Positions 9,249 to 39,867 of a stretch of DNA of 64,000 bases are shown here, piece after piece. The translations under genes were made by a program, and so were the position numbers. The notes below the pieces were generated by a model. It was given only the letters and a program-made list of their open reading frames with translations, was not told the DNA's origin and ran no database searches. Source of the stretch: Methanosarcina sp. (GTDB taxonomy: Archaea > Halobacteriota > Methanosarcinia > Methanosarcinales > Methanosarcinaceae); assembly GCF_028693135.1 (NCBI RefSeq), contig NZ_JAQUVZ010000001.1, positions 62,001 through 126,000 on the forward strand, in the 5' to 3' direction. Each line of letters opens with the position of its first letter. Positions within the stretch are counted from its first letter, which is position 1.

Positions 9249-10025
9249 ATGTTGGATTTGAAACTGGAAGACATCGATGGCATATTAGTACGCTACAACG
9301 TCGCCCTCGAAAAGGAAATGACTCCTGACGAAGCAGCAGAAGAGCTTTACCCGAAGGATGAACTCATCTACCCGATTGCAAAATCAATCTATGAGGGAGA
9401 AGAAGACGACGTGGTTGACGGACTCAAAGCCGCAATCGCTGCAGGCAAAAAGCCAATCGACCTTATCAATGATGCTCTGATGGTAGGCATGGGTGTAGTA
9501 TCCAAGCTCTACGACGATGGTATCATTTTCCTCCCCAATGTTATGATGTCTGCTGACGCAATGCTGAATGGTATTGAATTCTGCAAATCCCAGACAACCG
9601 AAGTACCCGAGCCCAAGGGCACTGTTGTCTGCCATGTTGCAGAAGGTGACGTGCACGACATCGGAAAGAACATTGTTGCTGCCCTCCTTAGAGCAGCCGG
9701 CTATGACGTAACTGACCTGGGCAGAGATGTCCCTGTTGACGAAGTCATTGAGGCTGTTGTAAAAGAGAAACCAATTATGCTTACAGGTACTGCTCTCATG
9801 ACAACCACCATGTATGCATTCAAGGAAATCAATGACAAGCTCCTTGAAAAGGGATTAAAATTACCCTTTGCATGTGGTGGCGGTGCTGTAAACCAGGACT
9901 TCGTTGCACAGTATGACCTCGGAGTTTATGGTGAAGAAGCTTCAGACGCAGTGAAGATTGCTGATGCAATCCTTGCCAGCGGGAACGACATTGAGAAGTT
10001 AAGAGCAGAATTCCACAAGCACTAA
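9249..10025 (+). CDS. mtaC: Methanol-specific corrinoid protein MtaC
   Basis: 258 residues. A helical N-terminal cap domain (about 1-120) is followed by a B12-binding Rossmann domain with D134-x-H136-x-x-G139. The base-off cobalt ligand His136 has the same number as in M. barkeri MtaC. It accepts the methyl group of methanol from MtaB on Co(I) and passes it to MtaA, which is not in this window, to make methyl-CoM in the cytoplasm. GGAGGT sits 8 nt before the ATG, and mtaB follows after 12 nt, so the two form one operon. The Msr pair at 18-20 kb and the surroundings suggest the third isozyme of M. acetivorans (mtaC3). The isozyme number is from memory; identity as MtaC is near certain. Confidence 0.97.
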   Translation: MLDLKLEDIDGILVRYNVALEKEMTPDEAAEELYPKDELIYPIAKSIYEGEEDDVVDGLKAAIAAGKKPIDLINDALMVGMGVVSKLYDDGIIFLPNVMMSADAMLNGIEFCKSQTTEVPEPKGTVVCHVAEGDVHDIGKNIVAALLRAAGYDVTDLGRDVPVDEVIEAVVKEKPIMLTGTALMTTTMYAFKEINDKLLEKGLKLPFACGGGAVNQDFVAQYDLGVYGEEASDAVKIADAILASGNDIEKLRAEFHKH

Positions 10026-12062: not shown

Positions 12063-12105
12063 AGATAAAGTAATGACAGCATTACACCCTCAGTAAAAAG
12101 GAAAA

Positions 12106-12216
12106 CGGAATTAAAAAACGGAATTAAAAAACGGAATTAAAAAACGGAATTAAAAAACGGAATTAAAAAACGGAATTAAAAAACGGAATTAAAAAACGGA
12201 ATTAAAAAACGGAATT
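12106..12216. repeat. Perfect 13-bp tandem array, 8 units plus a partial
   Basis: CGGAATTAAAAAA repeats without error from 12106 (starts 12106, 12119, 12132, 12145, 12158, 12171, 12184, 12197, 12210). Perfect identity points to recent slippage expansion. It lies in the 3' region of the transporter gene. No spacers, no inverted ends. Confidence 0.95.
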
Positions 12217-31316: not shown

Positions 31317-34300
31317 ATGACAGCAAGAAGTGTACCGGAACTTTCACCAACCCAAAAAACAGAACTTTCCGAACTCTTCGGAGAATACGTCAATCTTGAC
31401 AAGCGTGATCGCCACTATTACAACCACGATATAGGAGCCTTACCCCCTCTTGTCAAGAAGGTGATAGGAAACACTGACCCCGCGGCTGTTGTAAAAATCC
31501 GGACGGAAGAAGACGCCTTAAAGCTTCTGGAATTTGCAAACAGGTACAAGATTCCGGTTGTCCCCCGTGCAGGAGCCTCCTCAGGGTACGGCGGGGTAAT
31601 CCCTACAAAGGGGGGTATAGTTGCCGATGTCACATTACTGAATAAGATAATCAGCATCGACCCCGAAGGGCAGAAAGCAGTGGTTCAGAGCGGGCTTATC
31701 TGGGAAAAGTTAGAGAGGAAACTGAAAGAAGAGGGCCTCTCGGTCAGGGCAATTCCTTCAAGCGCTCCGTCCTCGACCATCGGAGGCTGGCTGGCTCAGA
31801 GTGGAGCCGGGTATGGGAGTTATGAGTTCGGCTGGGGCTATGAGAGTATGGAAAACGCCCGGGTTGTTCTCCCCAACGGGAAAATAAGGGACTTTTCCGG
31901 CCCCGAACTCAAGAAGTTAATAGGGACAATGGGGACCACGGGGATCATCACCGAAATTACCCTGAATGTCCAGAAACTCGAAGAAAGAAAAGCCGTTTCC
32001 GCCAGTTTCCCTGACGCTTCAGCCATGAAAAAAACGGTAGAAACCATAAGGAAAAAGAACATACCCCTCTGGTCGATCTCCTTCCTTAACCCCGAATGGG
32101 CGGACATGAAGAATAAATCGCCCCAAAAACTTCACTATGGGAAAGTTGTGGACAAAAACAGGCCAGTACTGCCTGTTGCTTACGTCTGTACCTTTATGTA
32201 CCCTGCTTCAAGGGACGTCTCCGGCTTAAAAGAAGCAATTGAAAATGCAGGCGGTACGGTCCTTCCCGAAGAGATTGCGAAGCACGAGACCGAGGAATGG
32301 TTCAAGTCCATGAAGGTTAAAAGGCTCGGCCCCTCCTTCATCCCTGCTGAGATCCTGGTGCCGCTTGAAAAAATGGACAGTGCTTTTAAAGAAATTGAAA
32401 AGAGGATTAAACTCCCGGTGCTAACAGAAGGGATGGTTATCAGTGACGGAAATGTTGTACTCCTCTGCTTCATGCGCCACTCCGAACGCTCCTTACTCTT
32501 CAATACGGCCTTTGCCCTTTCCCTGAGCATCCTGAAAATTGCAGAAGAAAACGGAGGCAGAGCCTATTCTTCCGGCCTATTCTTTGCCTCGAAGAAAAAG
32601 AGCGTCTTTGGAGCCCGACTTTCGGAAATAGAAGCCCTCCGGAAAGAATTCGACCCCAACGGAATAATGAATCCTGAGACCCTGGAAGGAAAAAGTCTCC
32701 TGAACACAGCCGTGTCCCTTGGCTCTTCCTTCGAACCCATGGGAAGGCTTGTTGGGAATATGTCCGGGATAGGGAAAATTACCTTCAAAGACGAAAAGGA
32801 CATCCCTGCAGACATTGCCGAACTTGCTTACTCCTGTTCCCAGTGCGGATACTGTGTGAGCGAGTGCGACCAGTACTACGGCAGGGGCTGGGAGTCCCAG
32901 TCGCCCCGGGGAAAATGGTTCTTCATCAAGGAATACCTGGCAGGCCGGGAAAAACTTGACCAGAGGCAGACGAACACCTTCCTTGCCTGCACCACCTGCC
33001 AGATGTGCGACGCCCGCTGTGAGCTGGACATGCCAATCGAACATGCCTGGATGACAATGCGCGGAAAGCTAGTTGATGAAGAGAAAAAGATGACCTTCCC
33101 GCCTTTCGAGATCATGGCTGCAAGCCTCCTGAAAGAGAGAAACATCTGGGCAAACCTCAGCAAAGACAGGGATAAATGGATTCCTGACGACATCAGGGCA
33201 AAAATGAAAGACAAAGCCGAGTACGCCTACTTTGCAGGCTGCACCGCCTCCTATGTGGAAAAAGACGTGGCTATAGGGGCTGTACGTATGCTCGACGATG
33301 CGGGGGTCGAGTTTACAGGGCTGGGAGACAAGGAAGCCTGCTGTGGAATTCCCATGCTCGTTGCCGGAAAGTGGGATGTCTTTGAAACGATCATGCGGAT
33401 GAACATCTCCAACATGAAAAAGAGGGGCGTAAAAACCGTGATAACCTCCTGTCCTGCATGCTGGCTCATGTGGCACACAGTCTATCCTCAGTGGGCAGAA
33501 AAACTGGGAATCGAATACGGGTTTGAGACAAAACACTATTCAGAAATCCTGGTTGAGCGCCTGGACGTGCTGAAGCCCAAATTCAAGGTACCCCTGAATA
33601 AAGTGGTTGCCTGGCACGACTCCTGCCACCTGGGAAGAGCCGGAGGCGAGATATACGACCCCCCAAGGGAACTTTTGAAAGCCATACCTGGCATCCAGTT
33701 TAAAGAACTTGAACACAACAGGGAAAAGGCCCACTGCTGTGGTTCGGTGGTGAGCCTTATTGCCGAGCCTCCTGTTGCATATAAACTTGGAGGGATGCGG
33801 CTTCAGGAGGCGGTAGATGTAAACGCAGACATCATTGCGGCTCTGTGTCCCTGCTGTACGGTTCAGTTCCGTGTCGCAGCCGAGAAAAACAACATGAACA
33901 TAGAGTCCCAGGACCTCGGCGCCCTTGTGGCAAGAAGCCTCGGCTATGACATCCCGGACACGACAAACTACGCCCTGCAGTCATGGGTGCCCTTTGAGAA
34001 GATGATCGCCCTCCTGCAGCCAGAAAACATGACCGACCTGATGGTAGAACTCCTGCCCCAGATGATGGCCGCAATGCCAGCTCCCCTTCAGGCCATGATG
34101 AAGATGGTCAAGTATGTGCCCGGAATGGATGCCATGATGAAGCCTATGATGCCCATAATGATGCCGATGCTCATGCCGAAGGTCATGCCAAAGGTCATGC
34201 CTGATATGCTCAAAGCTGTTGAGAGGCGGGTCCCGATGCCTGATTACATGAGAGAGATGCTCCCGGACCTCATGCCAAAGGCAATGGAGAACCTGATGCC

Positions 34301-34367
34301 TAACATGCTACCCGAAATCATCCCTCTGCTGACCCCGCGGATGATAGAGTACATAAAAACACACTAA
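31317..34367 (+). CDS. FAD-linked oxidase / Fe-S / CCG-domain fusion oxidoreductase with Met/Pro-rich tail
   Basis: 1016 residues. The order is FAD-binding type 4 domain (about 50-230: P-R-A-G-A-S-S-G-Y-G-G), FAD-linked oxidase C-terminal domain (about 235-460), two [4Fe-4S] sites (C507, C510, C513, C517 and C558, C561, C564, C568), and two HdrD/GlpC-like CCG repeats (G-C-T-A-S-Y ... A-C-C-G-I-P and D-S-C-H-L-G-R-A ... A-H-C-C-G-S). This matches GlcD-GlcF or D-lactate dehydrogenase-type enzymes fused to a heterodisulfide-reductase-like module. The last 112 residues (905-1016) hold 28 Met and 18 Pro in M-P repeats, which is unusual. Substrate unknown; D-lactate or another 2-hydroxy acid is plausible. 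TATA-rich promoter at 31170-31215. Confidence 0.88.
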   Translation: MTARSVPELSPTQKTELSELFGEYVNLDKRDRHYYNHDIGALPPLVKKVIGNTDPAAVVKIRTEEDALKLLEFANRYKIPVVPRAGASSGYGGVIPTKGGIVADVTLLNKIISIDPEGQKAVVQSGLIWEKLERKLKEEGLSVRAIPSSAPSSTIGGWLAQSGAGYGSYEFGWGYESMENARVVLPNGKIRDFSGPELKKLIGTMGTTGIITEITLNVQKLEERKAVSASFPDASAMKKTVETIRKKNIPLWSISFLNPEWADMKNKSPQKLHYGKVVDKNRPVLPVAYVCTFMYPASRDVSGLKEAIENAGGTVLPEEIAKHETEEWFKSMKVKRLGPSFIPAEILVPLEKMDSAFKEIEKRIKLPVLTEGMVISDGNVVLLCFMRHSERSLLFNTAFALSLSILKIAEENGGRAYSSGLFFASKKKSVFGARLSEIEALRKEFDPNGIMNPETLEGKSLLNTAVSLGSSFEPMGRLVGNMSGIGKITFKDEKDIPADIAELAYSCSQCGYCVSECDQYYGRGWESQSPRGKWFFIKEYLAGREKLDQRQTNTFLACTTCQMCDARCELDMPIEHAWMTMRGKLVDEEKKMTFPPFEIMAASLLKERNIWANLSKDRDKWIPDDIRAKMKDKAEYAYFAGCTASYVEKDVAIGAVRMLDDAGVEFTGLGDKEACCGIPMLVAGKWDVFETIMRMNISNMKKRGVKTVITSCPACWLMWHTVYPQWAEKLGIEYGFETKHYSEILVERLDVLKPKFKVPLNKVVAWHDSCHLGRAGGEIYDPPRELLKAIPGIQFKELEHNREKAHCCGSVVSLIAEPPVAYKLGGMRLQEAVDVNADIIAALCPCCTVQFRVAAEKNNMNIESQDLGALVARSLGYDIPDTTNYALQSWVPFEKMIALLQPENMTDLMVELLPQMMAAMPAPLQAMMKMVKYVPGMDAMMKPMMPIMMPMLMPKVMPKVMPDMLKAVERRVPMPDYMREMLPDLMPKAMENLMPNMLPEIIPLLTPRMIEYIKTH

Positions 34368-34450: not shown

Positions 34451-34567
34451 TAGGACTTACATGGTTGAGATATCAACATAGCATTGAACCTTTAAGTGTT
34501 TAAAAATTCAAATTTAAACAGAAGTGCCTATTGCACTTGATTTTATACTTCAACGGCGTAAGTCCTA
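34451..34567. repeat. Left boundary of the accessory locus: inverted repeat and direct repeat copy L
   Basis: TAGGACTTAC (34451-34460) is perfectly inverted as GTAAGTCCTA (34558-34567), with an inner hairpin AAGTGC/GCACTT (34522-34538). The segment 34531-34564 matches 37886-37919 at 26 of 34 positions without gaps, so the SEFIR gene is bracketed by direct repeats. Confidence 0.6.
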
Positions 34568-34654: not shown

Positions 34655-37582
34655 TCACTTTTTACTTCCTTTTTCAATTTTCGAACGAATCCATTTAGCA
34701 CGATTATGTTTTGTCGTAGCGTCCCTATTCCTTTTCATCTTAGCTAATAAAGAGGCATAACCTTCTAAGAGTCTAGCAACTTCAAGACTATTTTCTCCCC
34801 TAGTTTTTTCCGTAACTTTAATTGCTCGCTCATAATATGATTTGGACTTGAAATACTTGTTGCGATCCTTGAAAAATACTGCTAGATTGCTAAGGCTAAT
34901 ACCTACATCTGGATGTTCAGAACCAAGTGCTTTTTCAGCAATTTCCAAAGCACGAATTAATAGAGTTTCGGCTTCAGAATACTTACCAAAATTTCTATAG
35001 GCCTCGGCTAAAGTGGTAAGGCGATTACTCATATAAGGATGTTCAGGACCAAGCGCGTCCTCTGTGATCTTTAATGCGCGAATGCACAGAGTTTCGGCTT
35101 CTGAAGATCTGCCTAAATTGTTATAAACTCCAGCTAAATTATTGAGGCTGACACCTACTGCTGGATGTTCAGGACCAAGTGCTTTTTCTGAAATATTCAA
35201 TGAGCGAATCAATAGAGTTTTGGCTTCTGAAAACCGACCTAAAACGTTATAAACTCCAGCTAAATTGTTGAGGCAGGCAGCTACATCTGGATGTTCAAAA
35301 CCGAATGCTTTTTCCGTAATATCTAATGCACGAATACGTAGAGATTCGGCTTCAGAGAATCTATCTAAATGAATGTATATTCCAGCTAGATTGTCTAGAC
35401 TATCTGCTATAGCCGGATCATCTGGATTTAAAGTGTTTTCTCGAATATCTAACGCATGTAGATGTAGTGATTCAGCTTCAGAATACCTACCAAAATCGTT
35501 ATAAAGTTCCCCTAAGTTATTGAGACTTTCTGCTATAGCCGGATCATCTGGCTCTAAAGTATTCTCTCGGATTTCTAATGCGCGCACATACAGAGGCTCA
35601 ACTTCAGAATACCTACCTAAATCTATATAAAGTTCCCCTAAGTTATTGAGGCTCTCAGAGAGGTCATAATGTTCGGGCTCCAATATTTTTTTTCGAATTT
35701 CCAATGAGCTCTTCAAGAGTGACTCGCTTTCCTTAAAACGTGCACGTTTATGCAGGTAATTACCGGTTGCATTTAGCAGTTTTGCGGATTCTTCAGTCTC
35801 TATATTCAACAGCCTAATATATTCTGCACAGGTCTGAACATGTGGAAGAAGTTTATCACAAAGCTCCCAATTTTTATACTCAACTTTAGGAAATGCACGA
35901 TTTAAGGCTTTAACAACACTTTCAGCCCAGCGTTGCTGTTCATTTTTTTCAATTCCATCTCTAAGAACTACCTGTACAAGTCGATGGATATCAAATGTAT
36001 TCTTATCATAATAAGTAGAAATAAGTGAAAATTGCCGAAGTGGTTCAATAGCTTCTTTAAAAACTAGCCTATCATCTTCGATATCATGCAGCATCGAATA
36101 AATATTTTCACCTAATTCTCCTGATCCCTTAATAAAAACTTCAAATGGAATATTATTACAATTAAGGAAAGCACTTGCAGATAATATATCAGTGGAAGTT
36201 TTAGAAGTTTGTTTCACCTGTTCGAAATTTAACAACCAAGTTGTAGCCACAGAATCAGAATACTTAGTATTCTGAACCTGAGACTTTTCTAGTAATTCCA
36301 AACCATGCTTACGATAGCTAGAAAGATATTCTGCAAAACTGCACTTCAGCTTATGGATATAAGCTCCAGCTTGCTCCATAGCAAGTGGCAAGCAATCAAG
36401 TTCCCTTATGAGTTCTTCAAGTGAAGCAATCTCTGATTGATCAAGGTTTTTGTGCCCAGTACGTACGAGAAAAAACTCCTTAGCCTCTTCAGGCAACATT
36501 TTTTTAACTTCGATAGGATTCGTGATCCCTAGATTATCAAATGTTGGAGCTCTCGAAGTTAGTAGGACATGGCCCTGAATATTTGAAGGTAAAAAATATT
36601 CAATAAGGTATGGATAATCAGCATTATCAAGAACTAACAGCCAGTTATTGTTAGTTCTCAACCAGTTCTTTACGGCAGAAACCACAAGATTCTGGTCGGA
36701 GTCATCTTTTACAGGTAAGTTAAGTAATTTTGCAATAGAAACGTAATCTGAGACTATTGAATCTATTGAGTCCGCCTTAACCCAAAATACTGACTCATAT
36801 TCGTCCCGATAGCGGTACGCATATTCAATTGCAGTTTGGGTTTTTCCAATACCTCCAAGTCCACAGATCGCCATTGGCTGAGAAAGAGCTGCCGCATTTC
36901 TAGATTTAAGTTCATCATAAAGTTGTGCTAGAGTTTCTTCGCGACCTGTAAAAAAAGAGTTCTGTCGGTATGGAACATTGAATTTGGCGTCTAGATATTG
37001 AGACTTTGTTGATGACTGTATTATTTCTAAGTTTTCAGCCGCAGTAATCGGTTTTTGTAGATTATCTCCCACAACAGGAGGCAACTGTCTTATATTTCCA
37101 ATTTTAGGCTTGGGAATTAGTCTCTGATCAGTAAGATGTGCGTAAAGATCGTCATAACCCTGATCTGTATCAAGAACATAGTGAGTTACCCCTTTAAGCA
37201 CTACAGGAATATAATGTACATCTTTGGAGTAAAATACCACTGGAATGAACTTTTTATTTTTAGCTTCAGCGTCGTAGAGCTCTTGAGTTAAGATCGATGT
37301 TTCCCACTTAACTCCATGACCTTTTCCCGGTTCATCCTGACCTTTAAATCTCTTCTCATAGCTTTCCGTACAGACTACAAGTACATAATTTGCATTATCT
37401 ATCTGCTTATTCATCCATCTTGGCCAGCCTTCAACAGGAGACCTCTCATATTGATCGATGTTACAGTCTATCCCATCGTCGCACAGACTATTTGAAAGGC
37501 TCAACACGCGCCCTTTGTGATCGAGAGAATCGTGGCTATAACTGATAAAAACCTTAATATTTCCATGTTCTTGAGAGGTCAT
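34655..37582 (-). CDS. SEFIR - NB-ARC (STAND NTPase) - TPR protein, probable antiviral defence
   Basis: 975 residues in three parts. (1) A SEFIR domain, TIR-related (about 9-155: V-F-I-S-Y-S-H-D, W-P-R-W-M-N-K-Q-I, A-N-Y-V-L-V-V-C-T-E-S-Y). (2) An NB-ARC-type STAND ATPase: P-loop G241-L-G-G-I-G-K-T248, Walker B L-L-V-L-D-N-A-D (315-322), L-T-S-R (341-344) and C-L-P-L-A (397-401). (3) About nine 42-residue tetratricopeptide repeats from about 600 to 960 (S-L-N-N-L-A-G-V-Y pattern). Bacterial SEFIR proteins are known single-gene defence systems, and NLR-like STAND proteins sense phage proteins through their repeats. So it likely oligomerises on a viral trigger and its SEFIR domain then acts, perhaps on NAD+ (inference). 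It is alone, oriented opposite to its neighbours, with A+T-rich flanks. Confidence 0.88.
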   Translation of the reverse strand: MTSQEHGNIKVFISYSHDSLDHKGRVLSLSNSLCDDGIDCNIDQYERSPVEGWPRWMNKQIDNANYVLVVCTESYEKRFKGQDEPGKGHGVKWETSILTQELYDAEAKNKKFIPVVFYSKDVHYIPVVLKGVTHYVLDTDQGYDDLYAHLTDQRLIPKPKIGNIRQLPPVVGDNLQKPITAAENLEIIQSSTKSQYLDAKFNVPYRQNSFFTGREETLAQLYDELKSRNAAALSQPMAICGLGGIGKTQTAIEYAYRYRDEYESVFWVKADSIDSIVSDYVSIAKLLNLPVKDDSDQNLVVSAVKNWLRTNNNWLLVLDNADYPYLIEYFLPSNIQGHVLLTSRAPTFDNLGITNPIEVKKMLPEEAKEFFLVRTGHKNLDQSEIASLEELIRELDCLPLAMEQAGAYIHKLKCSFAEYLSSYRKHGLELLEKSQVQNTKYSDSVATTWLLNFEQVKQTSKTSTDILSASAFLNCNNIPFEVFIKGSGELGENIYSMLHDIEDDRLVFKEAIEPLRQFSLISTYYDKNTFDIHRLVQVVLRDGIEKNEQQRWAESVVKALNRAFPKVEYKNWELCDKLLPHVQTCAEYIRLLNIETEESAKLLNATGNYLHKRARFKESESLLKSSLEIRKKILEPEHYDLSESLNNLGELYIDLGRYSEVEPLYVRALEIRENTLEPDDPAIAESLNNLGELYNDFGRYSEAESLHLHALDIRENTLNPDDPAIADSLDNLAGIYIHLDRFSEAESLRIRALDITEKAFGFEHPDVAACLNNLAGVYNVLGRFSEAKTLLIRSLNISEKALGPEHPAVGVSLNNLAGVYNNLGRSSEAETLCIRALKITEDALGPEHPYMSNRLTTLAEAYRNFGKYSEAETLLIRALEIAEKALGSEHPDVGISLSNLAVFFKDRNKYFKSKSYYERAIKVTEKTRGENSLEVARLLEGYASLLAKMKRNRDATTKHNRAKWIRSKIEKGSKK

Positions 37583-38244
37583 CTGTAGCCCTTACGCACC
37601 AATATTTTTCAATTTAGTTTGATCACGCTTTATCTCATGTCGAAATGAGCTATTGATAAATGGAAAAAATATTGTAAATTAATTGATTACTTTCTATAGT
37701 TAGGCAGCTAATACATTAAATTTTTGTTTTGAGTAAAATTGGAGTAAGAGTAAAGATGTAACTTAAACATATAAAATAAATTATCCAACCGACTGTCAAA
37801 AGCTCCTTGTGTCTTATTATTTCTTACAAAACCAATATCATTGAACATTTAACAATCTAAATTTTGAGTTTGATTACAAAGTATATTGTACTTGAATATA
37901 CGCCTCAAGTGCGTAAGTCGTCTGTAAGTCGTCTTATAGTGCACTATTTTCTGAGAGTTGAAATTTTCTCCTTAATTCACAAAGAACAGATTTTTTACAA
38001 CCAGCGATCCTAGTTTAAGGAGTGAGATTGTTGGACTTTATTTACCATCTAAACCAACCAAATAAATGTATTAAAAGGACCAGAAGACCCAATTTTCAAG
38101 ATTAAGAACCTGACCTCCAGAGGAATTCTTATATAGAAGTGCTTGCATTAAGAATATGAAAAATTACGCACAAAAATAACGTGCTCAGAAATACTACTGA
38201 TAAAAATTCATAGAAATTCATATCATTATAAAGGAGATTAAATT
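37583..38244. other. A+T-rich right flank of the SEFIR locus and thermosome leader
   Basis: No protein-like frame. Direct repeat copy R lies at 37886-37919, followed by a second GTAAGTC (37924-37930) and the palindrome TAGTGCACTA (37937-37946). The thermosome promoter should lie in 38100-38220. An ideal AAGGAGATT precedes its TTG start. Confidence 0.5.
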
Positions 38245-39867
38245 TTGGCAGCACAACCGATTTTTATTTTAAGAGAAGGCAGCAAGAGAACCCACGGTTC
38301 CGACGCCCAGCACAACAACATCATGGCCGCAAAGGCAGTAGCTGAGGCAGTTAGGACCACTCTTGGGCCGAAGGGTATGGACAAGATGCTTGTAGACTCC
38401 ATGGGAGACGTCGTCATCACCAACGACGGAGCAACTATCCTTAAAGAAATGGACATCGAGCACCCAGGTGCAAAGATGATCGTAGAAGTCGCCAAGACCC
38501 AGGACGCCGAAGTAGGCGACGGGACAACCACTGCAGCCGTACTCGCAGGAGAATTCCTGACAAAGGCAGAAGACCTGCTGGAAAGCGGCGTTCACCCCAC
38601 TGTGATTGCAAGTGGTTACAGGCTTGCAGCAGACCAGGCTACAAAGATCCTGGAGACCATCACTATCAGCACAACTCCGGAAGATACCGAAACCCTCGAA
38701 AAAATTGCAGCCACAGCCATTACAGGTAAAGGCGCAGAGGCTAACAAGGACCACCTTTCCAGGCTTGCAGTTCAGGCCGTTAAATCGGTTGTTGAGGTAA
38801 GTGAAGATGGGAAGATCACTGTGGACATCGAGGACATCAAGATCGAAAAGAGACCCGGTGGAAGCATCGCAGACTCCGAGATTATCGAAGGTGTAATCGT
38901 TGATAAAGAACGTGTCCACAGCGGAATGCCGGAAATAGTGAAAGATGCAAAAGTCCTGCTCCTGAGCGTGCCAATCGAGCTCAAGAAGACCGAAACAAAA
39001 GCCGAGATAAAGATCACCTCCCCTGACCAGATGCAGCTTTTCCTTGACCAGGAAGAATCCATGCTCAGGGAAATTGTGGAAAAGGTAATCAGGACAGGCG
39101 CAAATGTAGTCTTCTGCCAGAAGGGCATGGATGACCTCGCCCAGTACTACCTGACAAAGGCAGGAATTTTCGCAATGCGCAGAGTCAAGAAGAGTGACAT
39201 GGACAAACTCTCCAGGGCAACAGGTGCAAAGGTTATCACAAGCATGGATGAAATCGAGGAGTCCGACCTCGGCTACGCAGGCCTTGTGGAAGAGAAAGAC
39301 GTCACAGGTTCCAGAATGACCTTCGTAACAGGTTGCAAGGACAGCAAGACCACCTCAATTCTGCTTCGCGGCGGAACCGAGCATGTAGTTGAAGGGATTG
39401 AGAGAGCCCTCGAAGATGCCCTCAGAGTTGTGGGCGTTGCTCTCGAAGATCAGAAGATTGTTGTGGGCGGCGGCTCCCCTGAAATCGAATTGTCCCTCAG
39501 ACTCCGGGAATACGCAGCAACCCTTAAGGGCAGAGAACAGCTTGCAGTTAAGGCCTATGCCGAAGCTCTCGAAGTCATTCCTCAGACCCTTGCAGAAAAT
39601 GCAGGGCTTGACCCTATCGACATGCTTGTGGAAATGCGCTCCCAGCACGAAAAGGGCAACAAGAGGGCTGGACTCAATGTATACACAGGCAAGATCGAAG
39701 ACATGTTCGAAAACAATGTTGTCGAACCTCTCAGGATCAAGACCCAGGCAATCAACGCAGCTACAGAAGCCGCAATTATGATCCTCAGGATCGATGACGT
39801 AATCGCCTCAGCCGGCGGTGGAAGAGCAGGCCCAGGGATGGGCGGCGAAATGCCTGAAGATATGTGA
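38245..39867 (+). CDS. thsA: Thermosome (group II chaperonin) subunit
   Basis: 540 residues with intact signatures: [37 protein letters not shown] and the Gly/Met-rich tail ([12 protein letters not shown]). It forms the double-ring ATP-driven folding chamber in the cytoplasm. The start is TTG at 38245, 5 nt after AAGGAGATT, and gives the standard MAAQP N-terminus. Codon bias is strong, as expected for high expression. It serves as the reference for the diverged paralogue at 4908. The subunit letter is uncertain. Confidence 0.95.

Follow-up and report, generated by a model that had tools for sequence, protein, structure and literature searches.

Related systems

The bSEFIR defense proteins, represented in PADLOC by model PDLC03957, are credited to Millman et al. 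2022 where PMC12926258 cites them, and bacterial SEFIR systems work through NAD+ depletion (PMC12322248, PMC12774641). Avs5, of SIR2-STAND-repeat type, recognizes a protein of the phage and brings about NAD+ loss (PMC12931631), and resting autoinhibition has been described for the archaeal STAND-TPR protein PH0952 (PMC6468293). Experimental studies of methanogen antiviral systems beyond CRISPR and restriction are few.

The window analyzed here, a stretch of 64,000 nucleotides from a Methanosarcina sp. contig, encodes a 975 amino acid protein that shares features with each of these systems and differs from each in others. It resembles bSEFIR in its SEFIR effector and in predicted NAD+ depletion, but here a full NB-ARC-TPR receptor follows the SEFIR domain and the profile is matched only in part. 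The NB-ARC-DUF7779-TPR chassis is that of the TIR-NB-ARC-TPR or fxsT-type STAND proteins (NF040586), 31-64% identical across phyla, whereas SEFIR stands in place of TIR and no FxSxx-COOH peptide locus was recognizable among the ORFs at 28-44 kb. With Avs5 it shares the tripartite plan of effector, STAND and repeats, and a putative effector of NADase type; Avs5, however, has another effector fold (SIR2) and an nSTAND3 NTPase in place of NB-ARC. A STAND core joined to a TPR sensor is also found in PH0952, the closest full-length solved fold (6mfv), and in MalT (PMC6468293), but these lack a SEFIR effector and MalT serves to activate transcription. Fungal NLRs (PMC4986451) likewise exchange effectors on a NOD-repeat chassis and have repeats of the TPR_10 or kinesin-light-chain type; their TPRs, unlike those described here, are highly conserved internally.

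Domain organization

The gene and its parts, all on the minus strand, are as follows.

34655-37582 (-), SEFIR-NB-ARC-DUF7779-TPR protein, 975 aa, ATG start, uninterrupted ORF
37169..37558 (-), SEFIR effector domain, residues 9-138, Pfam SEFIR (PF08357)
37301..37303 (-), codon of Glu94, at the N-terminal end of helix 91-104, a candidate catalytic residue
36992..37126 (-), disordered linker modeled at low confidence, residues 153-197, pLDDT < 50; the boundary of effector and chassis lies just downstream
36248..36937 (-), NB-ARC (STAND) ATPase, residues 216-445, Pfam
36839..36862 (-), Walker A GLGGIGKT, residues 241-248
36623..36640 (-), Walker B LLVLDN, residues 315-320
36551..36565 (-), LLTSR sensor motif, residues 340-344
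35939..36217 (-), DUF7779 winged-helix-like region, residues 456-548, Pfam
34658..35785 (-), nine 42-aa TPR units, the predicted sensor, residues 600-975

Pfam matches to SEFIR (55.4 bits, gathering cut-off 23) and NB-ARC (45 bits, cut-off 23.5) place the protein in both the SEFIR and the STAND families, and DUF7779 and the repeats, the latter as TPR_12 and eight TPR_10 stretches, were likewise recognized above curated cut-offs. One chain thus carries an effector, a NOD with Walker A and B motifs, arginine sensor and winged helix, and a repeat superstructure. The sequence-only reading had described just such an NLR-like chain of SEFIR effector, full STAND ATPase and nine TPRs, and on this Pfam, the motifs and an AlphaFold2 model agree. 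The whole-chain model, built with 28 homologues as input, has a mean pLDDT of 85 and all three modules are visible in it. In a Foldseek search with it, PH0952 of Pyrococcus horikoshii ranks first (6mfv, E 1e-12); the rows of the VIA table for the full model are TPR matches, so that table does not probe the NB-ARC part. A PADLOC search, which the same reading had put forward as a check, returned bSEFIR as the best model (186 bits, E 4.5e-55, protein residues 3-224), with the match covering only profile positions 37-249 of 412. The bSEFIR and TPR profiles were the only PADLOC matches at E <= 0.1, and none was to an Avs profile.

The chassis also scores 415 bits on the NCBIfam model FxSxx_TPR (NF040586), whose cut-off is 300, and some of its relatives bear a wHTH or HTH domain. 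Both facts are consistent with a role outside immunity, as a regulator resembling MalT or AfsR or as part of an FxSxx-COOH peptide system. We consider such a role very unlikely: the N-terminus is a SEFIR domain and not a DNA-binding one, and the patchy presence and exchanged effectors described below also speak against it. No FxSxx-COOH maturase was recognizable by eye in the list of ORFs from 28 to 44 kb, in which the gene is flanked by an FAD/Fe-S oxidase gene (31317-34367) and a thermosome gene (38245-39867), and by its context the gene does not belong to an FxSxx-COOH locus.

The SEFIR domain and a candidate NADase site

The model of the SEFIR domain is of moderate confidence (pLDDT 76). 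It matches the prokaryotic SEFIR structure 5y8e (Z 14.4, Foldseek E 1.9e-7), the SPARTA TIR (Z 13) and, likewise, the NAD+-consuming TIR of SARM1; by Z its closest match is Act1 in the helical IL-17RA/RB/ACT1 assembly 9ot1 (Z 17.3). Glu94 is invariant in all eight SEFIR-NB-ARC proteins aligned, and aligns with a glutamate in bacterial 5y8e and with a lysine in the human adaptor Act1. In a plain MAFFT alignment, where the register is ambiguous, it falls one residue off the TIR catalytic glutamate. From these alignments Glu94 is a candidate for the catalytic glutamate at the start of the helix.

The resemblance to 9ot1 raises the alternative that the domain is a scaffold rather than an enzyme, such that oligomerized SEFIR domains would recruit a separate partner by homotypic contacts, as Act1 and the IL-17 receptors do. 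Proteins of congeneric genomes in which SEFIR is joined to FGE or to PNP-FGE could serve as partners of this kind elsewhere. This genome, however, holds a single SEFIR gene and hence offers no SEFIR partner for recruitment; all prokaryotic SEFIR domains examined retain Glu94, where Act1 has a lysine; and published bacterial SEFIR systems deplete NAD+. We therefore regard a scaffold as unlikely.

The ATPase core and the TPR array

Among the 28 homologues, drawn from many phyla, Walker A Lys247 and Walker B Asp319 are invariant, and Arg344 and His533 are at least 90% conserved. DIHRLVQ (531-537), in the DUF7779 region, is the likely equivalent of the MHD motif.

The TPR array is of the 42-residue kinesin-light-chain type (KLC1 match E 2.5e-59). 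Its repeats had been described as near-identical, a description that does not hold: the nine units have a mean pairwise identity of 37% in amino acids and 52% in nucleotides. The central six (units 2-7) are 43-76% identical in amino acids, the best pair reaching 76% (81% in nucleotides), while units 1, 8 and 9 are divergent. Between adjacent repeats the median identity, where repeats are detectable, is 60%, and the best 42-aa stretch is 79% identical. For fungal NLRs, high internal conservation has been defined as repeats that exceed 85% identity over 100 aa or more (PMC4986451), and this array, with its best stretch at 79%, falls short of that level. The earlier suggestion that recombination among repeats would let the sensor change does not hold for this gene in its present form, because its repeats are not near-identical. 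It could fit relatives, several of which have adjacent repeats 86-90% identical (90% in L040 and L113), and in some of these repeat shuffling is plausible. A paralogue with an HD-CE effector (L040:6419-9919), whose TPRs are about 90% identical to one another, would be the better place to seek it.

Exchange of effectors on one chassis

Of the new results, the strongest is that close methanogen relatives carry different effectors on one chassis. Chassis 60-64% identical to this one bear a metallophosphoesterase (in the same genome), an HD-CE domain or a helical domain, and homology to these paralogues starts at about residue 201. In the paralogue of the same genome (L039:8546-12094, plus strand; G000:C54), a calcineurin-like metallophosphoesterase replaces SEFIR; identity to the SEFIR protein is 62% in NB-ARC and 68% in the TPR region, and the PADLOC model PDC-S60 is matched at 142 bits. 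In congeneric genomes the chassis carries HD-CE at L040 and L042, and at L041 a helical N-terminus with no assigned family. SEFIR is itself found on other modules: at about 60-64% identity it precedes FGE (L033) or PNP-FGE (L032) in congeneric genomes.

The six Methanosarcinaceae chassis group together as a clade of the NB-ARC tree (100/99), within which this protein pairs with a SEFIR orthologue from another genus (90/90), and the nearest outgroup is the SEFIR proteins of Methanoperedens (81/91). Read by parsimony, this topology suggests that SEFIR was ancestral on the Methanosarcinaceae chassis and was followed by about three effector replacements. The SEFIR tree is too short to be resolved, and a single clade of the four archaeal SEFIR-NB-ARC sequences is not rejected by it (p-AU 0.127); discordance between SEFIR and chassis trees is accordingly not claimed for SEFIR itself.

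It is possible, though we would not call it probable, that the NLR repertoire of Methanosarcinaceae is modular, a single STAND-TPR chassis having been repeatedly refitted with SEFIR, metallophosphoesterase, HD-CE and helical killing domains. Since this genome holds two such chassis, 65% identical, with different effectors, a single archaeal cell could answer related triggers in two different ways. Close relatives with nearly the same sensor chassis and four effectors offer a natural comparison for studying the signal that the chassis recognizes and the way in which effectors are swapped.

Other genes of related make-up were seen in these genomes. The metallophosphoesterase paralogue sits among housekeeping genes, beside Dph6-like and RNase HII-like genes as assigned by eye. 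Another AAA/STAND-like protein, which has nine TPR_10 units, is encoded in this genome, on the same contig as the SEFIR gene (L036:7604-10339; G000:C58). The proteins L032:4361-6538 (SEFIR, PNP_UDP_1 and FGE-sulfatase) and L033:6977-8356 (SEFIR and FGE alone) represent another architecture of SEFIR receptor. The FGE fold, which is C-type-lectin-like, is a known target of diversity-generating retroelements.

Distribution of the architecture

The genome groups with 29 congeners, and its gene content and kin are consistent with Methanosarcina. The full-length protein was found in only one of 30 genomes of the genus. The two genes that flank it occur together in 17 congeneric genomes, and in all 17 the gene is absent between them. 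Universal presence with vertical inheritance, which the sequence-only reading had named as the observation that would count against it, is ruled out by these counts. SEFIR of any kind was found in 10 of 111 genomes of the family and 8 of 392 of the phylum.

Nor is the arrangement special to Methanosarcina: a full orthologue, 50% identical over its whole length, is present in another genus of Methanosarcinaceae (L182), and the arrangement occurs in Candidatus Methanoperedens and several bacterial phyla as well. Genome contigs were scanned with the NB-ARC profile, yielding 79 loci (L091 being the same contig as L042). Among the N-termini examined, SEFIR was found at seven, two of them from Candidatus Methanoperedens (L092, L093) and five bacterial (Nitrospirota, Armatimonadota, Planctomycetota and Nitrospinota); the other 27 members of the 34-member TIR/SEFIR cluster matched TIR but not SEFIR. 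Further N-termini on the chassis are CHAT, EAD1, PNP, wHTH and NNH5, and some have no assignment. The SEFIR-STAND-TPR arrangement is thus rare in archaea, yet not new, and the chassis more often carries TIR.

The chassis is abundant in filamentous cyanobacteria, Ktedonobacteria and Planctomycetes, and this brings in a second alternative, that the protein is not antiviral but a receptor for conflict or self-recognition in multicellular aggregates, a role proposed for related effector-swapping systems of multicellular prokaryotes and for fungal NLRs. Related conflict systems are found in few archaea, Methanosarcina mazei being one example (PMC7159879), and fungal NLRs with the same TPR type govern non-self recognition (PMC4986451). 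On the other hand, relatives are found in Methanothrix, ANME and groundwater bacteria, which are not known for aggregate self-recognition, and no partner genes adjoin the gene. A role of this kind seems to us improbable.

SEFIR genes are also carried in prophages of Klebsiella and Escherichia; one SEFIR domain gene lies at 9317-9793 of Klebsiella phage ST15-OXA48phi14.1 (MK433578), a prophage genome. A peptide-pattern search found no viral contig with a close relative of the protein. In genome G002, a broken SEFIR gene whose N-terminus is 75% identical lies between transposase-like ORFs (L034:8477-9690).

Proposed mode of action

We think it fairly probable that the protein is a single-protein, NLR-like STAND immune sensor of the abortive-infection type, triggered by a virus and having NAD+ hydrolysis by SEFIR as its output. 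In favor of an immune sensor we count the domains and motifs, the PADLOC bSEFIR score, the SEFIR fold, Glu94, the PH0952 match, the patchy presence and low GC, the exchange of effectors, the SEFIR genes of prophages and the published work on SEFIR systems and Avs5. At rest the NB-ARC core would hold ADP, and the winged helix and TPR superhelix, in contact with it, would keep it closed; both this autoinhibition and later multimerization are suggested by PH0952 and MalT (PMC6468293). A protein or peptide ligand, most likely one made in viral infection, would bind the concave face of the nine-TPR array, much as the C-terminal TPR-type domain of Avs5 senses its ligand (PMC12931631). Binding would free the block and ADP would be exchanged for ATP, whereupon the NB-ARC core would oligomerize and bring several SEFIR domains together. 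Once clustered, these would hydrolyze NAD+, an activity predicted from the bacterial SEFIR systems, and the infected cell would be stopped. If the protein works in this way, single-protein NLR-like immunity with a SEFIR effector would extend to methanogens.

Insertion and flanking repeats

Against an immune sensor count the one-residue offset of Glu94, the moderate confidence of the SEFIR model and the setting of the gene, which lies outside any defense island. The oxidase and thermosome genes on either side are conserved housekeeping genes between which it stands alone, and a defense-island setting is thereby ruled out. The gene is an accessory insert between these two conserved genes. Compared with the closest relative (97% flanking protein identity), homology ends some 70 nt beyond the stop codon of the oxidase gene and returns at about 38068; the corresponding site in other species is occupied by unrelated genes, among them MFS transporters, a permease and an isochorismatase-like gene. 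The GC content of the gene is 38.0% (GC3 28%), against 51% (GC3 57-61%) for the flanking genes. A dispersed repeat lies on each side.

34451..34567 (+), on the gene's 3' side, dispersed MITE-like repeat whose terminal inverted repeats are TAGGACTTAC..GTAAGTCCTA
37819..37922 (+), on the gene's 5' side, a second, degenerate copy of the MITE-like repeat in direct orientation

The repeat is about 117 bp long with inverted ends, and about nine degenerate copies were found in the genome. It is possible that the flanking copies moved the gene. The repeats, the low GC and the unique location, together with the broken SEFIR gene of G002, would also be in keeping with a recently acquired gene that has no current function in this host. 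This appears extremely improbable, however, as all 975 codons are open, every ATPase motif is intact, and the orthologues of other genera are intact as well. Elsewhere in the window, at 12102-12216, is a perfect tandem array of 8.8 copies of AAAACGGAATTAA.
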